A model generated the notes under the pieces. That model saw only the letters and a program-made list of their open reading frames with translations, was not told where the DNA came from and ran no database searches. The position numbers and the translations under genes were made by a program. Shown one piece after another: positions 22,101-41,269 of a stretch of DNA of 64,000 nucleotides. Positions within the stretch are counted from its first letter, which is position 1, and each line of letters opens with the position of its first letter. The stretch covers positions 2,358,501 to 2,422,500 of the forward strand of contig CM038911.1 in the NCBI GenBank assembly GCA_021904315.1. Reading direction: 5' to 3'. The DNA is from Sphagnum magellanicum (Eukaryota > Streptophyta > Sphagnopsida > Sphagnales > Sphagnaceae).

Positions 22101-24645
22101 ATAAATTTACATGGTTTTACACTTACACAAAGTGTAAGTCCCAAACCATTTACACCCACAACAATAGTACTAACCAATGTTGCCTGGATCTTGGATTTTA
22201 CAATAACCATCAGTTCCATATTTTCAAACTTAAAAAAAAATGAAATACTTGCCAAATCTGAATCTATGGAATATTTTTAAAAGTTACGACAAGTGACAAA
22301 TCCAATTTTAAGGAATATTTGTAAAAGTTAAATCATGTGCCAAATTTGGGTTTGGATCAAAACTTTTGGACTACCAATTTTTTGATCTAATGGATCTTAC
22401 ATGGATAACCCTCGCCAAATCTATGTCTAATTTGGTTTTGATTCTAAGTGTATTCTCGAGTTTTTGGAGGGAGCCACTTTGATTGGTTGGTTTGCAAATT
22501 GTTTTCTCGATATGGAAACACTAAGTTGTTGTTATTGTGTACTATCAGGTCAACAGCTACAACTATCATTGTTTACACACATATCACAAATGACAAAAGC
22601 CTCCTTAATGATAAACTAATCTTGATACTCTTGAAACGTAAAATATGATTCATTTGTAAACAAACAAAATTTAAGCCTCAAACAAAAAATGAAAAACAAC
22701 ACCAAATCATGTGCAAAAAAACACCTTGTGTCCCAAAATTTCAAATCTTCAAAAGTGAGTTGAAAACTCATAACTTGAAATTACATCCTAAATATTAAAT
22801 AATTCAAAGCCTATTCACACATAAGCCAATTATAAACTAAAATACAATTACCTAAGGAATTAGTGAACAAACATTTAAACGCTCAAGTGAATCCAAGGGA
22901 GAGCTCCATTGTTTATGGTCTCCAAAACACTAAAGTTTTTCAAAAACAAATTAGAAATGAGTAAGTTACATCCTCCAAAAGTAGAGGGAGTCAAGAACTA
23001 AAGAAAACAAACCACAGAACATTACAAAGCCGATTCTTGAACACCCCAAATTTTTTTTGTATGTTGCTCTGTTGCTATTATAGTCCAAAGATGATCTTTA
23101 AAACTAAAGATGACACTCCTATAACACTTTAAATCATTTAAAATGAACAAGAAATCAGAAAGTTAAAAGTTTCAAAAGGAAGAGGGGTCCAAAGAGAAAA
23201 AAAAAAAAGTTTTGTAAGTTGAAAAGCTTATTTTTCTTTTGGTTATTTTTCCATTACTCCTTTTCCTTTGCACTTCAAAGATGATTTCTAAAGCTTGAGG
23301 TAGCACTTTCATAACATGTTAAATCACTCAAAATAAAGCATAGATGATAAAAATTTAGAGAAGTGTTCAATCATAGGGTAGTGATTGATGATGGGCAGTT
23401 CCACCCTATGTTAACCCAACTTGGCACTAAAATAATTGAAATTTTAATTGAGTACTAAATTAACACACTTGACATTGCCCCCAAGATAAATGTGAAGTAA
23501 CATTCAATCTTGCCTTGGGACACCATCGAGTTGCCCCAAAAGATTTTGCTGGACAACCTTAGGTTACCTAAGGAACAAACTAAATTTGCCTCAAGACAAG
23601 TCTCAATCCTCAAACCCCATGGCTTGATCCATATAACAAACTGGGGAATTGACATGGCTTAGACTTCCCGTGCCACCATGGTGCCCCTAACACAAGTCAT
23701 ATTTCATGCAAGCTAAACAGACATGAAGGGGCATGTCACCTAGACTTGACCACCTTTTGTCTAACCACAACCCATAACATTACATATGCCCATAGTTGTT
23801 AATGTAGTGAAGTACAACAATACTGCTGCAACTTTTTCCTTTCAATCCACCCTTTGCCCTGTTTTTTTATCATGTTTTGTATTCGCAACCTCCCATGTTA
23901 TGAGTACCAAGGAACACATAACATGCCAGGTAGCATGTGCTAAGGGTCTTGTAACATGTTACATACCCTAGCACCCATAGCATGCCCAATGTGAAATCCA
24001 AAAAAAGTTAATTTAAAAAAAACCCAATCAATGAATTGGCCAATTTTAGCATATTACACAAGCTTGTACACAATATTATGTAACTTCTTGTGCCAAGAGC
24101 CACCTTCAAGTCCCTTTATGCACCTAATAACTTACTCCTTTGTTACTATTCTAAAGGCTTAGTACTATCTAGACCTCATAGTGATGATCATGCTACAGGA
24201 AATGGTGTTTAGTGATTTTTGGCCATACCCGCTGGAGTCGCTGCCATGTAGCACCAATGTTGAGCGGGTATGTCAATGGACCTTCGATCTAATGTTGGTC
24301 TGCTATGAAGAAATTGCCCAAAGCCATATCACCTTGATGTAATATTCTTATAATGCCCTTATAACTCCATATGGTGGTCTATTGATATCCCTATCAACAC
24401 CGGACATGCATAACTAATAACTTTTGAAGATACAAGTTCAGACTGCTACTGACCATTTTCAGCAACAAATCATACGCAGTATCAATAGAGAAATTTAAGG
24501 TTTGAGAATTTAAATATTCATTTTTCCTTATGGTTCTCAGCTATTTAATAGGCAAACTGATGGGGAAGCCTGGAGAGGATTTTATTTTTTTTGGGTTGTT
24601 TCTAGCTAAAAAGCTTGTTGAAGGACACTTGATATTTGTGTTCAT
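19131..24645. other. AT-rich intergenic DNA with short foldback words
   Basis: No gene is recognised in about 5.5 kb. It contains a (TA)n tract at about 20826-20841. A cluster at about 21690-22200 has the word tttacacttac in both orientations, including the hairpin CTTACAC-aaa-GTGTAAG near 22123-22139. Near 24184-24270 lies a segment whose 'gttgagcgggtatgtcaatgg' resembles gttgggcgggtatcaaaatgg at about 37391, another dispersed repeat. Confidence 0.4.
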
Positions 24646-24817
24646 TGTCGTGACGTGTAGTGTCGTGACATACAGTGTCATAAAGGTGTGAATCCGCAGG
24701 AAACTCTACTAAACAAACAACCTAAAACCAATTAAAGGTAGAAACTAATCAAAGAAATGCATGCACACACATATATACACAATGCACAAGGGAGGCTGAG
24801 ATGAAATTCTCATGTAT
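24646..24817 (-). repeat. Outer LTR fragment A (5' part of U3)
   Basis: This 172-bp block begins TGTCGTGACG and ends catgtat on the plus strand. It is a near-copy of 25131-25302 (4 differences). It lies outside the full 3' LTR, joined to it with no intervening base at 24817/24818, and is bordered by TCAT. In element orientation it is the first part of an LTR following directly on the last base of another, as in a two-LTR circle junction. Confidence 0.9.
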
Positions 24818-25302
24818 ATTGAAATAAATTGCAAAGAAGCAGTGAAGGTGTATGTAGATGGTGGCCGTGCAGTAACCACCATGAGCATCTAGAAAATCCA
24901 AGTAAACTATGGAGGCAACTCTCATACAAAGGAATTCTAGAAAAACTAAAGGATAAGGGAAGGGCTTGGCCCTTTTATACAGCCACCAAAAGCTGAAACC
25001 CTAAACCTAATGGCGCACAGTCACTTAAGAACGTTCATAACCTTACAACCATACAATAACCCTAAAAGATATGACGGGCATGCCCGTAATCGGCCATCAT
25101 GCATGAGGCCGTGCATATGGGCATGACAGCTGTCGTGACGTGTAGTGTCGTGACATACAGTGTCATAAAGGTGTGAATCCGCAGGAAACTCTACTAAACA
25201 AACAACCTAAAACCAATTAAAGGTAGAAACTAATCAAAGAGATGCATGCACACGCATATATACACAATGCACAAGGGAGGTTGAAATGAAATTCTCATGT
25301 AT
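24818..25302 (-). repeat. Full 3' LTR (A-GC-B)
   Basis: This is a 485-bp LTR when defined by the polypurine tract at one edge and by the sequence that abuts the primer site in the 5' copy at the other. In element orientation it consists of block A (25302-25131), the dinucleotide GC (25130-25129) and block B (25128-24818). Block B holds a TATA box and the predicted RNA start. The A/B boundary is the near-palindrome CATGACAGCTGTCGTG at 25121-25136. Trimming to TG...CA (TGAG...TTTCA) is possible within a few bases of each end. Confidence 0.85.
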
Positions 25303-25310
25303 CCCCCCCC
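25303..25310 (-). other. Polypurine tract (G8)
   Basis: Eight consecutive C on the plus strand read as GGGGGGGG in element orientation. They stand between the end of the integrase/PHD coding part and the first base of the full LTR. The polypurine tract primes plus-strand DNA synthesis and so fixes the U3 start. Its position supports block A as the beginning of the LTR. Confidence 0.8.
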
Positions 25311-25351
25311 AGACCTGAGCCGGGAAAAGCGTGGCATGGTCTGAGTAGGAA

Positions 25352-26700
25352 TCAAGGTGTTGTAGAAGAACATGATGAATAGTACCAATTGCCGACGGGA
25401 ACTTGAGTGAGCTCCGACTTGAGGCAGAAGAGATGGTATCCACCATTACAGTTGTCACAAAGTAGCATCTGATCAGCATCGTCCATCCTCTGACATACTT
25501 GACATGGATAATCAAGTGGAGGAATCCAAGTCGACGTGATGATGGTAGGATCCAAGTTCGGCAAGTGGCAGGGCGCACAATTTTTGGAATGATCACGAAT
25601 TGTGCGTCCGTCAGCTCCTTGTAACTCCAACACACCTGAAGGCCTGATTGCCTTAATCCTCAAAATAGTGCGACCGGAAGAAGTGTCTAAAGTATCATTG
25701 GGTTGTCGCTGAAGATACACAAAATCACCAACATCAAATTGTCTCACCTTAGGTTTGTAACTGCCACCTCGTGTGTGTGCATACCGTAAGGTGTCTCGAT
25801 GTTGTGCAATGGACAAGTTTTCCATGGCCATGGGCATAACCCTCCTGAATAGAGCAGCCCTTTCTGCAATGACCCTAGCCCAAGTGGCCGGGGAATCCAA
25901 GTCCACAACCTGGTCCATTTGAGCAGTAATGGAAGAGGGTGGAATGGGGTGTCTCCCAAAAAGTAAAAAGTAAGGAGAGAAATGAGATAAAGAGGCGTGT
26001 TTAGACATCCTGTAACCCATGGCGATGTAAGGGAAGGCCAGGTCCCAATCCTCTTTGTTCTTAGTGAGGCAAATCTTCCGAAGTCCTTTCTTGCACGTTT
26101 GAACCATTCTTTCTACAAGGCCATCAGCTTGGGGATGATATCTTGAAGTCCGACGATGGTCAATGAGAGCATGGTCAAGTAGGTCTTGGAATTCTCCCCT
26201 GAATTATGATCCTTAATCAGTAAGGCACTCAGCACAAGCCCCAAATCTACTTAAAACCTGTTGTAAGAAAGCCTGACTGGTGCTGTGTGATGACTTGTCT
26301 GGTAGCGCAACAAGCTCAACCCACTTTGAAAAATGCTCAATCATAATCATGATGTAAACATTACCCCTAAAGGTTTGTGGTAACTCTCCAGCTAAATCAC
26401 ATGACCAACAATAGAACATGCCCTGAATAGGGAGTGGAGAAAGCGTGAGCTGTTGAGAGGAGAAAGAAGTTCTCACTTTATTACATTGTTCACACCTAGC
26501 AATGATGTCTCAGACTTGAACATACATACCTCTCCAATGGTAATGAGGAGCGAGAAGGCTATAAGTACACTTAACTCCAAAGTGTCCAAGCTCCGAGTGT
26601 ACCTTTTGAATAAGACCATGCCGTTCATGTGGTGGTGGAACCACTATGTCGCCTTGTGGTAAGCATTGGACAAGGTGATTGTCCCTCCATGAATAGCGTT
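25352..26700 (-). pseudogene. Integrase with C-terminal PHD finger
   Basis: Downstream of RNase H, the same frame contains an HHCC zinc finger (HSELGHFG, then CEQC at about 26482-26493). A DDE core follows: CDLAGE, then LTD before a stop, then GLVERMVQ just upstream of 26107. The C-terminal module is GDFVYLQRQ...LRIKAIRPSG. The last part, 25370-25504, is a C4HC3 PHD-type finger: C-x2-C-x11-C-x2-C-x4-H-x2-C-x14-[C]-x2-C. The seventh ligand is now Tyr (WYYSSC where WYC is expected). Integrase joins retroviral-type DNA to chromosomes, and PHD fingers commonly read histone tails. In-frame stops at 26783-26785, 26510-26512, 26213-26215 and 26204-26206 break it. Domain calls are confident; a targeting role for the PHD is inferred. 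Confidence 0.88.
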
Positions 26701-26782
26701 TGGACCACTGTTGTATGCGATTTTGCTGATTTGACGTAACTTGGGGAGGGTATTCCCCATGTTGAAGAAACCTCAGAGTGTC

Positions 26783-28594
26783 TTAGTCCTCCCATATATC
26801 GAGAATGGGCTGCTCAACCAATTTGCATTGCAGTAATGCAAGATAATTAGATGCCTCAGATACATGTACTGCTTGAATCTGGTCAAAATCTTGCTTGGCT
26901 TTTGAAAAATCTTCAGAGGTAGTGAGGGGTCTTCGTGACATGGTATCCGCATTCTGATGTGTAATACCAGGTCGGTGAATAACCTTGAACTCATACTCTT
27001 GAAGTATAAGCGCCCAATGAGCTAACTTACCAGTAAACTTATCATTGGTCATTAACCACTTGATAGGCTGGTGGTCGGTATACAAAGTGAAATTGGTGCC
27101 ATAAAGATAAGGCCTGAAATGTATGACGGCCCATACAACAACAAGGCATTCCCCCTCGTATGAGGAGTAGTTACTCTCAGCCTTGTTGTTGCTTCGAGAT
27201 GCATAGGCGATAACATATTCTTTGCCTTCCTCATCAAGTTGGCCAAGAATAGCTCCAATACCAAGAGCACTCCAGTCAGTGTGTAGAATAAAAACCTTGT
27301 TGAAATCAGGTCTTCTCAGAATGGGGAACTCTGAAAGCTTTTCCTTGAGTGAGTTGAAAGCTTCCTGAGCTTCATCACTCCATGTCCAAGCAACATCCTT
27401 TTTTAACAATGCATAGAGAGGATGAGCAATAGTACTAAAATCTTGGACATAAATTCTGTAGTAATTGCATAATCCGATGAAGCTCTTCAACATGTGAACA
27501 TCAGTAGGATTGGGCATCTCCAAAATGGCTACTACTTTGGCCCAATGAGCCATGGTACCATTTGGCAAAATTCTATGTCCAAGGTAGATTACTGAGGTGA
27601 CAGCAAACTCACACTTTTTAGGATGGATCTTCATATTGACTTCGTGGAGCCTCTTGAATAACTCCTCAAGATGAGCCAAATGCTGCAGGAGTCCCTTGCT
27701 ATGTACTAGGACGTCATCTATGTAACACTTCAGGAAATCTACCCCTTCGAGAACCTGGTCCATGACTTGTTGAAAGAAGACAGGTGCATTCTTCAATCCA
27801 AAAGGCATCACAAGCCATTCCCATAACTTGTTGTTTCCATGGAATGTTGTTTTCTTGCGATCCTTCTTAGCGAGCACAATCTGGTTGAAACCTTGCCTCA
27901 TATCCACAATTGTGAAGATGTTTGAATCTCTAATGCTATCAAACAATTCTTCAGGGATGGGCATGGGGTACCTATCCTGCGGTGTAACTAGGTTCAAAGG
28001 CCTATAATCCCCGCACATCCTTTTCTCAGTCCATAATCCAGCTGAATCTTTCTTTGTTGGCATTACTATAGCGGCTACGAAATCAAAACTTGATGGCTGA
28101 ATGAGACCTACTTCATGGAGCTCTTTGCATCTTTCATCTACTAGTTCCCATTCATGTTTGCTCAACCTATGCCTCCTTTGATAGATAGGTGTCTCATCTG
28201 TAAGGTCTACAGAAAACTGCATGGTCTTACACCTACCTAAGTCTTTCATTGAGAATGCAAACACATTCTCATACTTAATTAGCAAGTTTGTGATTTGGTT
28301 TCTTTCCTTCTTGGTGAGCTGGTTCCCCATAATGAAAGGGTAGTTGGAAACACTTGGAATGGAGTTAGAAAGTGTGTTTGAAGAACCTGATGTATTGGGT
28401 TCTCCACTATCCAACTGTGTAGATTCGTAGAAGGTTGTGATTGTTTCTCCAAAAGCTGATGCACCTCCAGGTGTATTAGACACAACTTGAGTCAAATTAC
28501 ATGGTACCTCCTCCCCCCCCGACACTGAGAGTGAAATGTAGAGTGTTGAAGATAGGCAAGTGTACTTGGTCGGGGTGCCATGTGGTTGCATCAC
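26783..28594 (-). pseudogene. Reverse transcriptase and RNase H
   Basis: A 603-codon open stretch covers the RT and RNase H of the Gypsy polyprotein. RT spans about residues 165-345, with FTIVDMRQGF (catalytic D231), WLVMPFGLKNAP and CYIDDVLVHS (D293, D294). RNase H spans about 435-555, with FILHTDWSALGIG (D440), SSYEGECL, LYTDHQPIKWL (D507) and HQNADTMSR (D550). All catalytic acidic residues appear intact. These copy element RNA into DNA and remove RNA strands. The stretch opens in a different frame from the methyltransferase tail, with a G8 run at the junction. It ends at an in-frame TAA before the integrase zinc finger. This is the best-preserved part of the element. Confidence 0.95.
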
Positions 28595-28658
28595 TAGAAT
28601 TGCAAGTTGATCGAACTAGTGTTGGTGTTGTGTACATTTGAAAGAGTACACAAGTTAC

Positions 28659-29603
28659 CAATAACCATGTAAGAGAGTTCAGGTCCATGCCTCTCCCTAG
28701 TAGAGCATTACGCTCCAATCTAGTCACCTTAATGTGACTAGTAGTGCCAGCTTGGAACCCCATAGCCCTTTCTCTTTCTTCTGGGCTTGGTTCATCCCAA
28801 GTGGCTGAAGCATGATGATACACCAGGCCTGGCCCATCTCCTTGAAAGGCGTGTGCTCCTGGGAAGGAAACAAAGGTGGGCCAAACACCTCTTGGTTTTC
28901 CTATTGTGTTCGTAGGAAACCAAGGAGGTTTTTCTTGCCTTGTAATTGGTTGGCAAGAACTTTGATCATCCAATATGTGAAAAATTTGCAGGTTGGGTCT
29001 TTGATAGTGTATTTCAAAGCTAACTGCAGAACTGAGAGTGGTGCCAAGTTGGTCCACCAATTGCGCAGCTGGTGCGCATAGGAACCGCATTGTGTCGCAT
29101 CAAGTAAGAGCGGCTCTCCAAAATAATGCTTGACCAGTGTGTAGTGCTCCTGGACTTTCTCCCTCTGATCAAGCTGAGAAGGAGTGTTCTCAATTACATA
29201 CCTAAGTGTAGGAGAAATGGATTGAGCCCAGGTGATCAATCGTACCATGTTCGTGAAAAGACCAGATCTTGTGTCATTCAAGCCTTCTCCAAATCCAGCC
29301 GTTGAAAATCCTTGACACTCCTAACCTGAAATGATGAGGTCGACAGGGCAAGTAATTCCATATGCTTCTTCTGAATTAGTTGTATGTCAGAGGGCAAAAA
29401 TGTGAAACTAGCCTTCCATGCGGTGGTTGCAAATTGTTGGGGTAAAATCTTGTTGTGAACTCTTTCATTTTTGATGCCGCCACTTGCCTTGCAATAGGAT
29501 CAATGTCTACGTAGAAATACCTCCGAACCACCATCCCCGACTGTAGTAGGGCTTCGAGACCTGTACTAATACCACCAAAGAGCTCTAGTAATGTAATCCC
29601 TTC
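28659..29603 (-). pseudogene. C5 cytosine-DNA methyltransferase domain in the polyprotein
   Basis: Between protease and RT lies a methyltransferase of about 315 residues with motifs in canonical order. Motif I is LELFGGISTG (29588-29559) and motif II is FYVDIDPIAR. Motif IV is ECQGFS, with the catalytic Cys codon at 29315-29317. Motif VI is YVIENTP (about 29200-29180) and motif VIII is GSYAHQLRNWWTNL. Motif IX is EERERAMGF and motif X is LLGRGMDLNSL. The enzyme class transfers methyl groups from S-adenosylmethionine to cytosine C5 in DNA. Frameshifts near 29425, 29350 and 28930 (an A5 run on the coding strand) and a TAG at 29321-29323, where Trp is expected just before ECQ, inactivate it. Motif IV has Glu where Pro is usual. 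Capture of DNMTs by retrotransposons has been reported in charophyte algae and dinoflagellates. The domain identity is strong; its function in the element's life cycle is inferred. Confidence 0.9.
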
Positions 29604-29978
29604 CTTAGGTGGTGTCCAGGTGATGAGTTGACGAAGTAATGGCTTAATCGGTTCGCCATGGCTTTCCATGCTTTCAAAACTAGACAAAGCTTTGACCAAG
29701 GGCTTGTGGGCTACTTTGAACCTTTGTAAAACCTTTGGTCCATGTTGGATGTCAGTAGGAACCACCTTCAAGCTTTTAGTAGCTTGAACATAAGCTATCT
29801 CTTCCTCATCTCCCTCTATCCATTCGTGGCTAGCTTGTTGGATGTAGGAAATGGTGTGTGCTTCCTTGAACATGCAATGGTGAGCCATAGGACTATGGTT
29901 CCCATGTAAATCAAGGGGTATGTATCCCAAGTGGTGGCCATCAGTTTCCCAATCCACTCTGTAGTACGCATGTTCGAA

Positions 29979-30872
29979 CTAATTGTCAATTGTGAAACTT
30001 GGTGGAAACAGGGCCTCTTGCCCAATGAGCACATCATAACTTGTGGCATTGGTGACTAAACATCTGACCTGTAAGCAAAGCTCCTGATCTGTACCTTCAT
30101 TGAATTTAAGTGTAATCAAATCTGAGCTTTCCCCAAGTACCTCCTCTACGCTCCCACTAGCGGTGCGAATCTGCCACATAGATTTTCGTAGTTTGGAGTC
30201 AAGCATGCCCATCTTCTTGGTGAATTGAATTCCAAGAATCACTGGTTGGGCACCTATGTCAAGAAGTACGACTCTAGGTGTATGTCCTCCCACTTGGATT
30301 GTTGACCCAGTATTGTTGACAATGGCAACTCCGGTGGTGATGGAAGTTCTTTCACTAGGCACCACCTTCGAAAATGAGTGAGAGACTTTGTGGAGAGCAT
30401 GGCTATCCACAACACCTTTGTTGAATAACAAATCCACAAGTGAGGTGCTCTGAACTCTCTTCTGATATGTGAATGTAGAATCAGAGGTAGGAAAGCCTAC
30501 TAGTTTAGCCATGCTAGAACTAGTGACCAGATTACGAACGCCATCTACAACATGTGAACCAATCAAATGTCTCTCCAAGGTGTTGGATGGGACCTCTGTA
30601 GCATGTGGATCAGGGATTGGTAGAGGACCTGATGTAATGTTCAAGGTATCCTCTAAGATTGCAATTATGTCCTTGGTGCTTAGCTTCAAATCTTGAAAAC
30701 TAAACAATGGTGTACTCACAAGCTTTTGTGCCACATCATGCATTTGAAGTTGGCATTCCATAAGTTGATTAGTGGAAAATTGTGTGTTTTCCTGATGTAC
30801 ATGTACTCCTGGGACACGAGAATTTGATGCCCTAACAGCTTGTGGTGTAGTAGTCTCTCCCCCCCTCGCCAA
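29979..30872 (-). pseudogene. Retroviral-type aspartic protease region
   Basis: A 297-codon open stretch in frame with the nucleocapsid part. It contains VVLLDIGAQPVIL, matching the active site of retropepsin-like proteases but with Ile in place of the usual Thr/Ser after Asp. A downstream YDVLIGQEAL matches the flap-to-C-terminal part of Gypsy proteases. The enzyme would cleave the polyprotein into its mature parts. A TAG at 30873-30875 separates it from the zinc-knuckle part and a TAG at 29979-29981 from the methyltransferase part. Both can arise from Gln or Trp codons by one transition. Confidence 0.8.
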
Positions 30873-30875
30873 CTA

Positions 30876-31670
30876 GGTGCGTTCCTCTTCCATGTTGAAA
30901 GGATGAAAAGATTGTGGCATGACTGTTCGAGCTCCTTTAGCCCTGGTAATAGGACTTGAACCAGATGCGAGTCCATCGGTTTGAATTACCTGCCTAGTGG
31001 CAGAAACTTTGGGTGCCACACTAGCTTCTTGTGTCGTGACATAGGAAGGGCAAAAAGAAGTAGCAACTTCTGGTGTGAAACTAGAATTGCATGGAGTGGA
31101 AAGAACATACTCCCCAACCATGGCATCATGTGGAAGGCCATAGAATGACCTAGGAGGTCCCTCTCGTGATCCTAAACTTTGTACAGGTTGGGCATGACTA
31201 GCTAGTTGGGAGGACTTACCTTTTAGATTAGCAAGTTGAGCCTTCAATGATTTGAGTTCATTTTGTAAAGTCTGAACTTGAATTGCATGGGCTTGAAGCA
31301 CCTCCCTCTTGTCAGCATTGTGCTCCTTCTTCTTAGCATTCTTGTTGGAATTACCCTTGGTGGGCAAAGCCTGAGTGGAAGGTTGAGGTGCCTTGGCTTT
31401 TGGTTGAAGGATAGCGGAAGATGCTGGCGGATTTTGCTGTTGTAATCGAAATTGCTTCCGCTCTGGGAACTTGGCAAAACAGACAGATTCCTGATGTCCC
31501 TCTTTTCCACAATAATCACAAAAGAGATCTTCAGAAGGAATGTTGCACTCACTAGCTTTGTGGGTAGGATTGCCACAATAGTTGCAAGAAGGTAGGATGG
31601 GTGTAGCCGTGTGCACTGCTTTAGTCCTTGAAGAAGAATGTGATGATCTAGTTGGCGGAGTTGGTGTAGG
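30876..31670 (-). pseudogene. Gag nucleocapsid with two CCHC knuckles
   Basis: An open stretch in the Gag frame has CNYCGNPTHKASEC and CDYCGKEGHQESVC, two C-x2-C-x4-H-x4-C knuckles that bind RNA in retroelement nucleocapsids. A Lys/Gln-rich, probably coiled segment follows (about 31340-31200) and then a Ser/Thr/Pro-rich linker to the protease. It is separated from the capsid part by TAA codons at 31671-31673 and 31800-31802, each one transition from CAA. Confidence 0.88.
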
Positions 31671-32749
31671 TTAAGGCCTTGAATGTGATGGAGGCCTCAT
31701 AGTACTCGCCTCATAGTGTGCATGAGCCAGTTCCAACTTTTCGGAAATGTTGTACACATCCAGCAAAGTGTACGAGTCTCCAAATTCTGCAAAGACTCGT
31801 TACAAAACCTGTGCGTGGAGTGTTGGAGTACCTTCCAAAGAATGAAGATACCGGTGAGCAGCTTCCAAACCGGTGATGCTCTGGGTATCCTCTTTGAGTT
31901 TAAGAAGCCTCCTGTAAAGCATCTTGAGGGTTTCATCCTTCTGCCGAGAGAAGGTGGCGAGCTGCAGAATTTTTTCGGAACTTTTGACTGGAAATTCCAG
32001 CTTAAGAATTTGGAAGAATTCCCCCACTGGATCAACAAAAGCTGGCGCATCGGTGGTGGGGGGAATGTTTGTAGTCGTAGTAATGAGTTGTTGAGGAGAA
32101 AGGTTTACTGAGGTAGGTATCGGGTTTGGATTATTCGGCATAGTCCCGTGATGTGCAATTGCAGCTTGAGAGGCGGTGGCGATGGCTATGGCGTAAGCTG
32201 GATTGGGAATCTGGGTGACATCCAAAATCCTTGCAGAATGTTGCTCGTAGACATCCAATGCTTCATAATGCACATAACGAGCTAATTGTTTGAATGCAAA
32301 CGCCTCGGTGTAATTAGCGCCGTACTTGAGCTCCAATTCACAAACCAGAGTTGAGAAGGTTGCCTTGAATTCCTTCAAAGAAATGTACTTAGCCTTCCGC
32401 TGAACTTCTCAATTCTCCCAAAGGAACTTCTAACCTCCATGGTGTATATGGGTGTTGAAGTCACAGCTTGCAACGGAGTATACGGTGATGGTGTGAAAGT
32501 AGGTGCAACAATAGGCGTACCCCACTGATTAACCCCTCCAAATGGACTTTGATGTACTGTTGATGTGGTGTAACCTGAACCTGAATTCCTCGTAGGAGTT
32601 GTACTAGATGACGGTGGTGTTGTGGATGCTTGATGGTACCGTTGTGAAGATCGTGAGCTTAAAGAAATTGGCTCAAAGGATTATGTGTTACTTCATAGCT
32701 GATACCTGGGCTCTGGCCTAGCGGTAATGCTTTCATCATCCGAGGACAT
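31671..32749 (-). pseudogene. Gag matrix/capsid region
   Basis: Two possible start codons lie at 32749 (ATG TCC TCG) and 32739 (ATG ATG AAA), in different frames. A Ser/Thr/Pro-rich N-terminal part leads through at least two frameshifts (near 32660 and 32400) to the main Gag frame from 32378. That frame carries a capsid-like helical region, including EFFQILKLEFP and LYRRLLKLKEDTQ. The capsid part continues after a TAA at 31800-31802 with a VFAEFGDSY-type stretch. Gag would assemble the particle in which reverse transcription occurs. Confidence 0.75.
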
Positions 32750-32904
32750 GGTGTTGTCCCATACCCTAAAATGTTGTGATAATATACAACACTAACTACA
32801 AAATCCTAACACAACGTACAATGTGAAGAATAAAGTGCGTTGTTGGGAATGACCCGTGACACACAAATATTGCACGGAAGTCAAATAGATGTTGGATGAA
32901 AAGG

Positions 32905-33250
32905 CAGGACGTAGATGGTAGGACGTAGGATGGCAGGACGTAGGGTGGTAGGACGTAGGGGTGGTAGGACGCAGGACGATAAGCACGTAAGACGAAGGAC
33001 GTAGGACGTAAGGCAGTAGGATGCAGGGCGACAGGACGCAAGACGGCAGGCTCGCAAGACGAAGGGCGATAGGACGCAGGACGGCAGCCGAACGAACGGA
33101 AGTCGGACGGACGGAAGTCGGAAGAACGGAAGTCCATGGACAGAAGTCGGACGGACGGAAGTCGGAAGAACGGAAGTCCATGGATAGAAGTCGGACGGAC
33201 GGAAGTCCGTGGACGAAAGTCGGACGGACGGAAGTCCGACGGACGAACCA
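32905..33250. repeat. GGACG-rich minisatellite in the leader
   Basis: The left half is built from words such as 'ggtaggacgtagg'. The right half has a 44-bp unit repeated about 2.6 times without indels (33102, 33146, 33190), then a shorter 29-bp version. It is CpG-rich compared with the surrounding DNA. Confidence 0.85.
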
Positions 33251-33269
33251 AGGTCTAACGATGGCAACG

Positions 33270-33790
33270 TTTTCGCTTGCAACGCTGCAACAACGATGCT
33301 GTTGCAACGTTGTTGTTGCTGCGGCACTACGACACTACTGTTGCTATTACTAGAGCTCGCAGCGATGGCGTTGTTACAGCTTTAGCTGTGGCGTTACTGG
33401 AGCTCATAGCGACGTTGTGCAACGTGGCTGGAGCTCGTAGCGGCGCTGTGCAACGCGGCTGGAGCTTGCAGCGATGGCACTATTGGAGTTCGTAGCGGCG
33501 CTATGCAGCTCGTTGCGGCGCTGTGTAACAGCGCGTTGGAGCTCGTTGCGACGTTGTGTAACAGCGCGTTGGAGCTCGTTGTGGCGCTGTGCAAGGTTAT
33601 TAGAGCTCGCTACGACGCTGTGCAGCAGCGTGCTGGAGCTCGTTGCGGCATTGTGTAGCGTTGCTAGAGCTCGTTGCAACGCTGTGCAGCGTTGCTAGAG
33701 CTCGCTGCGGCGTTGTGCAGCAGCGTTAGAGCTCGCTATACAGCGCTGCTAAAGCTCGCTGTGCAACGCTGCTGGAGCTGGCAACACGAT
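33270..33790. repeat. CpG-rich minisatellite in the leader
   Basis: Repeated gagctcgt-gcg-cgctgtgcaacg units, about 29-36 bp long, recur some fifteen times with base changes and small indels. One interval is 31 bp (33431 to 33462). CpG is frequent in almost every unit, unlike the rest of the window. Confidence 0.85.
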
Positions 33791-34159
33791 GTATGTTGCA
33801 GTTCACGTCGCGACAGCAGGCGGTGCTTAGTTGCTCTGCAACGATGGCAGCCGCCGCCGCCACCTTAATTTTGTTCTTTTTTTTTTTTTTTTTACTTCTA
33901 AGCCGCCACAGGAGAAAGATGGAAAGAAATAGGGAGGGGGAGCTTTGAAACCTGTTCAAAGATCTCAACTTTGTTGGTTGGCTTTAATGTAACACGAAAG
34001 CTCCTTCCCATAGCAATAGTAGTAGCAACTTGCGCTCCCTCCTTGCGCTCCCTCCTTGCGCTCCCTCCGGCAGCAACAACACCACACCAGTAATAACAAC
34101 TCTAGAACTTCAAAAGTGCAAAAAATCTGTTCCTTTCAACATGAAGCAACAAGAAATAG

Positions 34160-34171
34160 AGTTTTTCTAGA
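34160..34171 (-). promoter_or_regulatory. Self-primer binding site
   Basis: The 12 bases next to the last LTR base read TCTAGAAAAACT in element orientation. With three LTR bases this forms AATTCTAGAAAAACT, the exact complement of AGTTTTTCTAGAATT, which starts at the predicted RNA start (34301-34287). No tRNA-type primer site (such as TGGTATCAG) adjoins the LTR. The arrangement matches the Tf1/sushi mechanism, in which the mRNA 5' end folds back and primes minus-strand synthesis. It is inferred from sequence complementarity. Confidence 0.8.
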
Positions 34172-34482
34172 ATTGAAATAAATTGCAAAGAAGTAGTGAA
34201 GGTGTATGTAGATGGTGGCCGTGTAGTAACCACCGTGAGCATCTAGAAAATCCAAGTGAACTATGGAGGCAACTCTCATACAAAGGAATTCTAGAAAAAC
34301 TAAAGGACAAGGGAGGGGCTTGGCCCTTTTATACAGCCACCAAAAGCTAAAACCCTAAACCTAATAGCGCACAATCACTTCAGAACGTTCATAACCTTAC
34401 AACCATACAATAACCCTAAAAGATATGACGGGCATGCCTGTAATCGGCCATCATGCATGAGGCCGTGCATACGGGCATGACA
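34172..34482 (-). repeat. Truncated 5' LTR (block B only)
   Basis: This 311-bp copy of block B shows 12 substitutions and no indels against 24818-25128. It lacks block A, so the U3 start is missing. The outer edge ends ...GACA (plus strand) and is followed by TCAT. It keeps the TATA box, predicted RNA start and U5 end, so transcription could in principle still start here. Confidence 0.9.
34287..34333 (-). promoter_or_regulatory. LTR core promoter and predicted RNA start
   Basis: TATAAAA reads from 34333 to 34327 in element orientation. AGTTTTTC begins 32 bases further on, at 34301, a normal plant TATA-to-start spacing. This start is chosen because the bases that follow complement the primer site exactly. 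The same elements occur in the 3' LTR. Confidence 0.7.
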
Positions 34483-34739
34483 TCATGTCCTTAGATGTTG
34501 AATTATGGTAAATACTGTTGGAAAAGTGAAAGTGAAACTCAAAAGACATGTTATTGTATGTCTTTTTTTGCATTTTTTTTCATCCCAAACGTGTAAAAAT
34601 AAAATTCCAATGCAATTTGCCATCGTAATAATGAAGGTGAAATGTCATTATGAAATACTAGACTAGTGTTAGCTTTCGCTGATATCAAACTTCAAAAATC
34701 ACAACTACTGCTACAGAAACAACTGTTATGCAAATAGTT

Positions 34740-38149: not shown

Positions 38150-39304
38150 CCGTGGCGGCGCAGGCGGCAACGCCCACGTCGCTGGCCGACGCCTGCAGCG
38201 TCGCACCCCCAAATTCCTCGCTATGCCTCGCCGCCACAGATTTGCCTTAGATTCGCCTACTCTCTCTCTCTCGCAACAGAACACTGTTGCAGCAGGAGCA
38301 AGATGATCATCACAATCATCGTCGTCTTCCTCTTTTTCTTCTTGCGTCGTCGTCGTCGACGTCGCAGTTCGTGGTACTTACTCCTTCTTGGATGTAGCAG
38401 CAGCAGCAGCGGCAGCTCCCTGCCGTGACAGCTGGTTGCAGGAGATGAAGAACAAGAAAAAGAAGATTGGAGCATATTACCGGCCATCAGGCTGCCGCAG
38501 TCGCCACGCAGTTTCGCGCTTTTCTATTTTTGCTCACGGACCAGCTGCCAACAGTAGCAGCAGCAAAGCCGGGAGTGGGTGGGGAGAGAGAGAAGAGAGA
38601 AGACGCCGGCGCGCTCCGCGGGGGCCACCAGCTACACTCGTTAGTACTACTACTACCAGTGTGTCGTAGCTGCAACTGTTGTGTGTCTGTCTGTGATTGA
38701 TCTGTCAGCTTCCTTAAAACTATTCCTTACTGCTCATCTAGGCTTGCTGCTGCATGTGGGTGAGTAAAAAATTCTTAACAGCGTGCAGCTCCAGCAACTG
38801 CTTGGGTGGCCGTTTTGTTGGATTCCACTTTCGTGGTTCTCCGAGAGAGAGAGAGAAAGAGAGAGAGAGGCGCTCTCCTGCACGGAAGCCGCAGCTGGCT
38901 GGAGTAGTAGCTGGTACTCTAGTGGCGTTATCTACTCGTAAAAAGTCCGCGACTTGGAAACTGGGGTCGACTAAGGCGGTTTGTTTTTTATGTCGGGTTT
39001 TGCTGCAGCTGGTTGCAGAATTTTTGCTGTGCATGTACCCGCATCTGAACAACTCTCTCACTGTCGAAGCTCGACTTTTTATCTTCGTGTCCTTTTTTCA
39101 GGCTACTACTTTGTTGTTGAAGACTGGAGTTTTTTGGAAGAAGAAGAAGAATATTATTATTATATTGTTGGTGAGTCTTTGCGGTTGTTTTAATTGTCGT
39201 GGAAGTGCTCCTCATCAGCTGCTGCAAAGGCGGCTCATGAGTCTCTCTAGTAGCTGCTGCTGGGGAAGCTAGCTGCCATTGTATGAGCTGCTCTCAAGGT
39301 TAGT
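38150..39304 (+). other. GC-rich leader or promoter region of the protease gene
   Basis: Base composition rises sharply compared with the AT-rich DNA upstream. The region contains (GA)n at about 38845-38872 and several short overlapping open stretches on both strands, probably upstream ORFs or noise. Potential splice signals exist (gtgagt at about 39170), so a 5' UTR intron is possible. No separate gene is supported. Confidence 0.45.
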
Positions 39305-41269
39305 ATGGAAACGTCGTCGCTGAGCATGAGCTGCAGGAGCTCTCGTGGTAATGGTGTTGGAGGTGGAGTTTCATGCAGAGCGGTCTTGTATTCTCGTGTC
39401 AAATGGACAGTACTAGCAGTGTGTCTCTTAGTCTGTTTCCTGTGTGTAGCGGTCCTTCTTTTGGTTCCAAAAGATGTCTGCGGAACATTTGTGAAATCGT
39501 CGCGCCGGGCTGATTTCGTGGACTTCCGGCGGTGGTCGAGAAGTTTTAGCTGGCGGCCGAAATCGGAGAGGCCGAAACCATGGCGAGAAAACAAGCTGCT
39601 GCAGGTGCAGGTTAGAGATCATCATCATGCGGAGTCGAGCTCAGAAGAGTACATATGGGGTATGCGCGGGCGGCATTCTGCAGGACGAAGCAGCAGCAAT
39701 GGACGTGCAAGAGCGGCAGCGGCTGCGACTGGAGGAGCTGCAATTCGTATCAAACTCGTGCACAGGAACTCACCGGAATCGCCATTTAGGAAGGAGTATA
39801 GTACGCGTGGGAAAGCTTGGGAAGATGCCAGGGAGATGGATGTTGTCAGACTCGCAGGGTTCAGGAAACGGATACTTGCGCAAGCAGACGACAACAATTG
39901 GAGGAAAGTTGCAGCAACTGCTGCTGCTTCTTCCGGATCAAATGCTGCAGCAACTGGAGCTGGAAGCGTTGCTGAGGCGCCAGCGATCATGGCAACAATA
40001 CAAAACCCGAGCGCTGGCGGCTCGACCGTGCCTGCAGCAATGAATTCCTTTCAGACCTCTGTGGTATCAGGCTCAACACTCGGATCAGGACAATACTTCG
40101 TGAGCTTCAGCATCGGAACTCCGGCGCAGAGCTTCTTCCTGGTCGCAGACACAGGCTCCGATCTCATTTGGGTGCAATGCGCGCCTTGCACGCAGTGTTA
40201 TCCGCAAAATGATCCTCTGTACTCACCCTCCAACTCCTCGAGCTTCGTCCCCGTGCCATGCTTCTCCAGCGAGTGCAACCTCGTCCCCGCAACTCCTGGC
40301 TTCCCGTGCGATGCGGAAACGTATCCGGGTGCATGTGCATACGTTTACCAGTATGCGGATTCCTCGACCACCAAAGGAGTGTTCGCATTCGAGACCGCGA
40401 CACTGCAGAAGTCTTCTTCTTCCAGCAGCTCCTCCCCGAGCTCTTCTAGCTCCATAGTACACATCCAGAACGTCGCATTTGGATGCGGGACTGACAATCA
40501 AGTGAGCTTCCAAGGAGCAGACGGAGTGCTAGGATTAGGTCAAGGACCGCTCTCCTTCACATCGCAGATTGGGTACGCCTATGGCGATGTCTTCTCTTAC
40601 TGTCTCGTGAGCTACCTAGAACCTGTTTCTGTCTCTTCCTCATTGCTCTTCGGCGGCGATGGCGGCGGCGGCGGCGGACTGTTCGCCAACCACAGCAGCT
40701 CGCAACTGCAATACACACCCATTCTTAGCAATCCTCGGTCCGGGACTTTGTACTACGTGGGTATTCAGGAAGTGAGTGTCGCAGGCTCAGTTCTTGACAT
40801 TCCTTCCTCTGCATGGAGCTTCGATCTGTTGGGCGACGGCGGGACGACGATAGACTCCGGCTCCACACTCACGTACTTCGTTCCTGCTGCTTACAGTGTG
40901 ATTCTCACTGCTTTCAAGCAAGTTTTGCTGCAGGAGTTTCCAGAGGTAACACTACAAACAACAACGGCGCAGACATTTGATCTGTGCGTCAATGTTTCTG
41001 CTGCTGCCGCCTACAGTAGTTCTGTGCAGCCGTATCCGGAGTTCCGAATCCGGTTCCAGAACGATGCGGATTTCTCGCCGCCTCCCGAGAACTACCTTGT
41101 GGATGTTGCTCCCGATGTCAAGTGCGTGGCCCTTCAAGGACTTCAATCCGATAGCTTCGGTTTCAACACAATTGGAAACCTGTTGCAACAAAATTTTCTG
41201 GTGGTTTATGATCGCCATAGCTCGCGTATCGGGTTTGCTCGCTCGCACTGTGCAGCAGTCGCGGACTAG
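39305..41269 (+). CDS. A1B (nepenthesin-like) aspartic protease
   Basis: A single exon of 654 codons. Residues about 33-55 are a hydrophobic segment, likely a signal anchor, after a short basic N-terminus. A prosegment follows with IKLVHRNSPESPF, the motif typical of plant CDR1/nepenthesin-like proteases. The catalytic part begins about residue 262 (GQYFVSFSIGTP), with active sites DTGSD (282-286) and DSGST (517-521). The conserved C-terminal IGNLLQQNFLVVYD lies at 623-636 and GFARSHC near the end. The Cys-rich nepenthesin insert (CAPCTQCYP and later Cys) is present. The enzyme would cleave peptides at acidic pH in the secretory pathway, vacuole, wall or outside. Unusual points are the long Arg/Ser/Ala-rich region before the catalytic domain, a run of about 15 Ser around 370-383 and a Gly run near 451-458. 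The start is the first ATG giving the membrane segment. Family and catalytic sites are certain; substrate and location are not. Confidence 0.95.
   Translation: METSSLSMSCRSSRGNGVGGGVSCRAVLYSRVKWTVLAVCLLVCFLCVAVLLLVPKDVCGTFVKSSRRADFVDFRRWSRSFSWRPKSERPKPWRENKLLQVQVRDHHHAESSSEEYIWGMRGRHSAGRSSSNGRARAAAAATGGAAIRIKLVHRNSPESPFRKEYSTRGKAWEDAREMDVVRLAGFRKRILAQADDNNWRKVAATAAASSGSNAAATGAGSVAEAPAIMATIQNPSAGGSTVPAAMNSFQTSVVSGSTLGSGQYFVSFSIGTPAQSFFLVADTGSDLIWVQCAPCTQCYPQNDPLYSPSNSSSFVPVPCFSSECNLVPATPGFPCDAETYPGACAYVYQYADSSTTKGVFAFETATLQKSSSSSSSSPSSSSSIVHIQNVAFGCGTDNQVSFQGADGVLGLGQGPLSFTSQIGYAYGDVFSYCLVSYLEPVSVSSSLLFGGDGGGGGGLFANHSSSQLQYTPILSNPRSGTLYYVGIQEVSVAGSVLDIPSSAWSFDLLGDGGTTIDSGSTLTYFVPAAYSVILTAFKQVLLQEFPEVTLQTTTAQTFDLCVNVSAAAAYSSSVQPYPEFRIRFQNDADFSPPPENYLVDVAPDVKCVALQGLQSDSFGFNTIGNLLQQNFLVVYDRHSSRIGFARSHCAAVAD

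Follow-up and report, generated by a model that had tools for sequence, protein, structure and literature searches.

An unrearranged, Dnmt3-type cytosine-C5 DNA methyltransferase lies between the protease (PR) and the reverse transcriptase (RT) of a Ty3/Gypsy retrotransposon, on the minus strand (28659-29603) of the window, that is, the 64,000-nucleotide stretch of Sphagnum magellanicum DNA analyzed here. In the reading that we favor, with a probability of roughly 0.62, the window element is a decayed copy of a Sphagnum Ty3/Gypsy family that carries a captured Dnmt3-type domain within Pol and, following the integrase (IN), a PHD finger, and the domain serves to methylate the element itself. 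That the element captured a Dnmt3-type domain and keeps it under selection is very nearly certain; that the domain would methylate the element's own cDNA, a proposal drawn from sequence, is given slightly less than an even chance.

The preliminary description of this DNA had reported C5-methyltransferase motifs in canonical order, placed between PR and RT on the same strand. Both statements hold: motifs I, II, IV, VI, VIII, IX, and X were all found, following one another on the minus strand from 29597 down to 28671, with the PR frame upstream and RT/RNase H downstream (Table 1). Canonical C5-methyltransferases have Pro before Cys in motif IV and ENV in motif VI; the window copy has ENT, not ENV, in motif VI. 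Profile searches likewise place the region in the C5-methyltransferase family. Within the window domain only the middle piece matches PF00145 (24.1 bits versus a Pfam cut-off of 22), and the outer two pieces, taken singly, match no Pfam family; open-frame relatives reach PF00145 scores of up to 36.9 bits, above the curated cut-off, and the NCBIfam dcm model is matched below its cut-off. When a profile made from 23 natural relatives was compared with the PDB, DNMT3A, 3B, and 3C came first (DNMT3A, E = 2.2e-8), followed lower down by 4onj (1.1e-4), which we take to be a plant DRM structure, and by HhaI (2.6e-3). Chance resemblance is excluded, because there are 607 homologous proteins and because a DNA pattern for motif IV (GWECQGF) has 165 exact sites in the genome and 0 in the reversed control.

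Table 1. Features of the retrotransposon in the window (window positions; a dot marks features given without strand)
Feature	Position	Strand	Evidence or remark
4-bp target-site duplication TCAT, beside element 3' end	24642..24645	.	sequence
Element, Ty3/Gypsy	24646-34482	-	
Repeat unit A (172 nt), element 3' end, ends CACGACA	24646..24817	-	
Repeat unit B (311 nt)	24818..25128	-	
GC spacer inside palindrome GACAGCTGTC, A'/B junction	25129..25130	-	same spacer in second family
Repeat unit A'	25131..25302	-	168/172 identical to 24646-24817
G8 run just before A', polypurine-tract-like	25303..25310	-	sequence
PHD finger, integrase C-terminus	25370..25504	-	PF00628 1.6e-9; present in 20/20 copies
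Integrase catalytic core, two pieces	26096..26509	-	PF00665 4.2e-7 (30.6 bits, cut-off 32.6)
Integrase H2C2 zinc-binding domain	26513..26782	-	PF17921 3.6e-9
Reverse transcriptase and RNase H, Ty3/Gypsy type	26783..28615	-	PF00078 4.2e-29, PF17917 3.7e-37
Dnmt3-type cytosine-C5 methyltransferase domain, pseudogenized	28620..29610 (outer limits approximate)	-	three frames, stop before catalytic Cys
Motif X NALLGRGMDLNSL	28671-28709	-	sequence
Motif IX PSPEERERAMGF	28755-28790	-	sequence
Motif VIII GSYAHQLRNWWTNLAP	29039-29086	-	sequence
Motif VI YVIENTP	within 29174-29200	-	sequence
Motif IV ECQGFS, with catalytic Cys, Glu replacing usual Pro	29303-29320	-	sequence
Motif II YFYVDIDPIARQVA	29478-29519	-	sequence
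Motif I ITLLELFGGISTGLEALLQSG	29535-29597	-	sequence
Aspartic protease frame	29979..30872	-	PF13975 1.9e-4, 22.4 bits, below cut-off 28.2
Two CCHC zinc knuckles	31479..31586	-	Cys/His spacing; Pfam matches below cut-off; present in 20/20 copies
Gag-like reading frames, broken	31697..32680	-	putative, from position
Tandem-repeat arrays between B' and gag	32903..33735	.	periods ~15, 31, 44 nt
Repeat unit B', element 5' end, begins TGTCATG	34172..34482	-	299/311 identical to 24818-25128
4-bp target-site duplication TCAT, beside element 5' end	34483..34486	.	matches 24642-24645

The window holds a single copy of the element, and it is broken. Its methyltransferase domain is spread over three frames, with frame changes near 29445, 29347, and ~29000; another at ~28530, behind the domain, makes four in all between PR and RT. 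An in-frame TAG stop directly precedes ECQGFS, and the protease active-site motif (30231-30272) reads DIGA; the liverwort relative P0127 has DTGA. With its frames broken, a stop beside the catalytic Cys, and a DIG protease triad, this copy is a pseudogene. For the window copy, the three frames and the TAG correct the earlier statement that the domain runs largely in the polyprotein frames.

The element is otherwise a Ty3/Gypsy retrotransposon, having the order PR-RT-RNase H-IN, a DDE integrase, and a short target-site duplication (TSD), and the best PDB match of its RT is the Ty3 polyprotein (9.7e-65). Assignment to DIRS is contradicted by the presence of the integrase core PF00665, and no recombinase family was found in the frames of the element that were scanned. 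The two gag-like frames scanned gave no Pfam gag match. Elsewhere in the window, a long frame without stops extends over 39287-41269 on the plus strand; we presume that it resembles a plant aspartic protease of the pepsin type.

Read 5' to 3' on the minus strand, the window element consists of B', the coding part, the G8 run, A', GC, B, and A, with the termini TGTCATG...CACGACA and TCAT flanking both sides. A plain LTR element is therefore rejected: B' at the 5' end versus A'-GC-B-A at the 3' end constitutes split direct repeats. The complete split-repeat layout, with both ends in view, is present in 6 of the 20 copies that were fetched first from the genome, all with a 4-bp TSD (for L027, provided that the altered final two bases are counted), so 4-bp TSDs accompany 7/7 complete copies when the window copy is included. 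Such duplications fit insertion by a DDE integrase. A seventh fetched copy also shows the layout (7/20) but with its 5' edge cut off. Five others of the 20 (L011, L013, L019, L024, and L028), again with both ends in view, have a B'-coding-A' form without the terminal repeat; matching 4-bp flanks are seen in four of these and not in the fifth. This form could be either the primary insert or a product of A'/A recombination, and LTR-finding programs would likely miss such copies. The remaining fetched copies have one end outside the stretch or an incomplete repeat unit. Across the nine copies with a comparable pair, the repeats differ by a K2P distance of 0.00-0.05, mostly transitions; the value for the unit B pair of the window is 0.04.

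The preliminary description had also held that the domain belongs to the element rather than to a neighboring gene, and had proposed that other copies be inspected for a methyltransferase between PR and RT. The genome that was searched, that of S. magellanicum (439 Mb in 31 contigs), contains at least 124 PF00145 matches, a lower bound for the element family in which host genes are also counted; among the matches listed, eight lie in open frames of more than 1,200 codons. The first 20 copies were chosen because long open frames surround their domain. In all 20, the same order was found: zinc knuckle, PR, the methyltransferase (DNMT), RT/RNase H, IN, and PHD. The DNMT queries spanned motif II to X; L026 has an insertion in the C-terminal part of the domain, and L027 has a shortened end. 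Among the proteins, P0192 has DNMT, RT, and RNase H in one open frame, and P0191 joins DNMT and a protease match (below cut-off) in one open frame. When viral contigs and genome contigs were scanned with P0001, pattern matches but no relatives were obtained.

A family-specific RT pattern has 321 sites in the genome (control, 0), outnumbering the 165 motif IV sites. Among the sites listed (C1-C3), an exact motif IV site lies no more than 2.6 kb from 27 of the 80 RT sites; conversely, 27 of the 35 motif IV sites are paired with an RT site. The surplus of RT sites could represent copies without the domain. Six unpaired RT sites, the first on C1, were opened, chosen because no exact motif IV lay beside the RT, and methyltransferase sequence was present in all six. 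Four have nearly the whole tested length of the domain before RT; PR was seen in three of them, and in the fourth, PR lies outside the stretch and RT contains an insertion. The other two show only the C-terminal end of the domain, most of the remainder having been displaced beyond the stretch by an insertion of ~3 kb. Insertions of ~2-3 kb, inside or beside RT, were observed in the older copies L037, L040, and L041. Altogether, the domain is carried by 26/26 further copies examined, on several contigs, two of them as C-terminal ends only, and the earlier assignment of the domain to the element is thus upheld. The ratio of observed to expected CpG is 0.35-0.65 in the copies, which is no depletion versus the window flanks (0.32 and 0.42).

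A test for purifying selection among copies, likewise proposed earlier, gave a positive answer for the main part of the domain. The analysis used pooled Nei-Gojobori dN/dS with 95% confidence intervals and an out-of-frame control over the 20 copies; their choice for long open frames could bias dN/dS downward, although it does not directly select against missense changes. For the N-terminal 238 codons of the DNMT, dN/dS is 0.241 (0.170-0.367; control, 0.744). The C-terminal 89 codons give a weaker signal with a wide interval (0.435, 0.240-0.860; control, 0.662). Values of 0.331 (0.239-0.459; control, 0.561) and 0.173 (0.106-0.291; control, 0.745) were obtained for the 390 codons of RT/RNase H and for the linker, respectively. 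PR showed no selection signal in the 20 copies (0.502, 0.352-0.711, versus an out-of-frame control of 0.440). Comparison of the broken window copy with the 20 copies yielded 0.383 for the DNMT N-terminal part. The main part of the domain thus seems to be under purifying selection in the family, across many copies.

In the main family (family 1), motif IV reads WECQGFS, with Glu in place of Pro, in both moss and liverwort. Among proteins that cover the site, 109 of 113 retain the Cys and 100 of 111 the preceding Glu; the catalytic Cys is present in 20/20 genomic copies and the full GWECQGFS in 18/20. The two proteins of the liverwort Calypogeia, P0127 and P0160, have an identical WECQGFS. To our knowledge, Pro-Cys in motif IV is nearly universal among C5 methyltransferases, and every comparison enzyme has it: family 2 (below), three host DRMs, a DNMT1-type host exon, and DNMT3A. 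Family 1 therefore departs from the Pro-Cys that marks C5 cytosine methyltransferases, and family 2 retains it. Besides the Cys, the ENT(P), AHRxR, and FGG motifs are conserved in both proteins and copies. Judged from its sequence, the Glu variant brings a real chance that the domain may no longer methylate.

A second, divergent Gypsy-DNMT family (family 2: L001, L003, L004, L031, and L034-L035) is present in the same genome. L001, L003, and L004 are among the best PF00145 matches and have the motifs WPCQGHS and ENVP; a WPCQGH pattern has 18 genome sites (control, 0), which were checked in part. Identity of the family 2 copy on C18 to family 1 is 39% and 45% in the N- and C-terminal parts of the DNMT, 49% over most of RT, and 70% over 33 residues of IN. 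The PHD match of the C18 copy (0.0023) is below the Pfam cut-off. In the C14 copy the repeats are split in the same way, B containing an insert; the palindrome GACAGCTGTC with its GC spacer recurs, and 4-bp repeats flank the copy. The C18 copy is without the terminal B-A but has matching 4-bp flanks. The family 2 repeats were found by comparing two copies; self-comparison of one copy showed none.

In the liverwort relative P0127, PR and DNMT share one frame, both above Pfam cut-offs, and identity to Sphagnum-type proteins is 62-69% in the DNMT region (five proteins), 69-71% in PR (three), and, in the linker, 57-59% (three) or 44-46% (two, with partial cover). P0127 and P0160, both from Calypogeia fissa, share just 60% identity across 224 columns, and P0160 is nearer to P0016 (69%); given this, more than one lineage may have existed before the hosts diverged or may have been transferred between hosts.

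Host enzymes are set apart from these families. Three host genes (L002, L005, and L030) have a rearranged order, in that a motif VI-type stretch precedes I-IV where the frames were read, and on that motif order we take them to be of DRM type; L029 is presumably a host exon of DNMT1 type. The host DRMs have SPC(N/Q) in motif IV and are 21-27% identical to family 1 (two compared), and no RT was seen in the listed frames of the DRM-type loci. Host DRMs share a Dnmt3-related catalytic core with the element but differ in motif order, since the DRM arrangement, with motifs VI-X before I-V, is absent from the element's domain. Motif order and identity thus reject a DRM or DNMT1 origin. No canonical host Dnmt3 was recognized among the places opened, which are a minority of the at least 124 PF00145 matches. 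A tree with host enzymes and algal retrotransposon methyltransferases had been suggested. The one obtained, an unrooted IQ-TREE analysis of 26 sequences and 196 columns in a set without a host Dnmt3 or the algal element, answers this in part: the domain is of Dnmt3 type and stands apart from the three host DRMs, families 1 and 2 together being split from DRM plus DNMT3A with a support of 99. Identities are 41-43% between families 1 and 2; for DNMT3A the figure is 30-31%, and for the two DRMs it is 21-30%. As far as these sequences go, one capture before families 1 and 2 split would fit.

The closest known system is KnitGypsy-Dnmt3 of the charophyte alga Klebsormidium nitens, which is of the same class and has the same position and repeat layout. 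The preliminary description had stated that DNMT capture has been reported for charophyte algae and dinoflagellates, and KnitGypsy-Dnmt3 and SymbioDIRS-Dnmt3 are indeed on record (de Mendoza et al. 2018, PMC5890265, here and below as excerpted). The algal element carries an unrearranged Dnmt3 in its Gypsy Pol ORF, combines Gypsy domains with DIRS-like repeats (A-coding-B-A-B), and has a domain under purifying selection, with Ka/Ks <0.2 (PMC5890265). It shares with the Sphagnum element the Dnmt3 class, the unrearranged motifs, the location in the Gypsy Pol ORF (compare the P0192 frame), the split-repeat layout, which is also found in the C14 copy of family 2, and the purifying selection. The two differ in host, moss and liverwort versus alga; in the WEC motif IV and PHD finger of the Sphagnum main family, the algal element being known here by description rather than by sequence; and in number, at least 165 motif sites in Sphagnum versus an element in K. 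nitens with fewer copies than in Symbiodinium (PMC5890265). SymbioDIRS-Dnmt3 of Symbiodinium likewise has a Dnmt3 that shares an ORF with RT, together with split repeats, but it is a DIRS element with a tyrosine recombinase rather than a DDE integrase, and it is active on CG in yeast (PMC5890265). In yeast, Dnmt3s from dinoflagellate retrotransposons methylate CG de novo; no activity was seen there for the Klebsormidium Dnmt3, a result that the authors judged inconclusive, and methylation of cDNA is their proposal for DIRS elements (PMC5890265). In the accessible text of that report, mosses are not mentioned, and bryophytes appear for host Dnmt3. A 2019 paper argued that land plants such as tracheophytes lack transposons of this kind. 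The genome paper on Sphagnum (PMC9946827) reports Ty3 content, with the words "gypsy" and "methyltransferase" absent from the portion of its main text available. Among the listed titles and abstract openings of openly licensed papers, we found no description of a bryophyte retrotransposon that carries a DNMT; the tables of a 2025 survey of DNMTs (PMC12344493) may list such copies. The split direct repeats, the PHD finger, the Pro-to-Glu change, the pseudogene state, the second family, and the liverwort relatives all go beyond the preliminary description.

Taken together, these results have led to the following model. The domain would be made together with RT inside the particle, and if so, its first substrate would be the element's own cDNA. 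Methylation of new copies may mark them as resident DNA or may protect them until integration, and the PHD finger may steer the integrase to a histone state; the chromodomains of chromoviruses play the part proposed here for the PHD finger. Several observations weigh against the favored reading: the Glu beside the catalytic Cys, the wide dN/dS interval of the C-terminal codons, the lack of a selection signal in PR, the choice of open copies, the surplus of RT sites over motif IV sites, the limited set in the unrooted tree, CpG ratios without depletion, and the negative, if inconclusive, yeast assay of the Klebsormidium enzyme. A different and unlikely reading keeps the Dnmt3 fold but not the chemistry: with its altered WEC site, the domain would be retained to hold DNA, RNA, or RT, and no methylation would occur. 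The prevalence of the Pro-to-Glu change beside the catalytic Cys in both moss-type and liverwort copies speaks for such a role, as does the failure of the Klebsormidium enzyme in yeast, inconclusive as its authors judged that to be (PMC5890265). However, the catalytic Cys, ENT(P), AHRxR, and FGG are conserved and would not be needed for pure binding. Family 2 can be cited on either side, because it retains WPC in the same genome and because it has the canonical motif in the same position.

It is also conceivable, if rather improbable, that a PHD-guided enzyme acts on host chromatin near the insertion or on competitors, silencing rivals or damping its own family. The ADD domain is PHD-like, and retrotransposon proteases usually cut Pol. 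Animal DNMT3 combines catalysis with an ADD domain (PMC12344493, in part), and the Sphagnum PHD finger is present in 20/20 copies, that of the window having the PHD fingers of WSTF, KMT2D, Lid, and ATXR5 as its closest PDB matches. Nevertheless, the usual protease cuts would part the DNMT, at one end of Pol, from the PHD finger at the other, and the location of the DNMT beside RT favors a cDNA substrate. Finally, the single, broken copy in the window might by itself suggest that a host gene or fragment was inserted by chance into one Gypsy copy, as a passenger or neighbor. That idea retains practically no credence, being refuted by the methyltransferase sequence before RT in 26/26 further copies on several contigs, by one open frame that spans DNMT, RT, and RNase H, and by the selection on the domain. 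A bolder extension of the favored model is speculative and probably wrong in some part: family 1 would be a natural active-site variant, with Glu for the motif IV Pro, selected and common to moss and liverwort, that serves a substrate unused by cellular Dnmt3s, for example, single-stranded or RNA-paired minus-strand cDNA in the particle, and there would have been one capture before land plants, now seen in Klebsormidium, liverworts, and mosses, with a split-repeat Gypsy element as the vehicle throughout.

Plants silence transposons by methylation, so an element that has long kept a methyltransferase must benefit from it. The evidence of 2018 came from one alga plus dinoflagellates. With no fewer than 165 motif sites and two divergent families in a Sphagnum genome, together with the liverwort relatives, the question moves into land plants, in which methylomes and mutants make it testable. 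The Glu variant constitutes a natural experiment on the active site of C5 methyltransferases.
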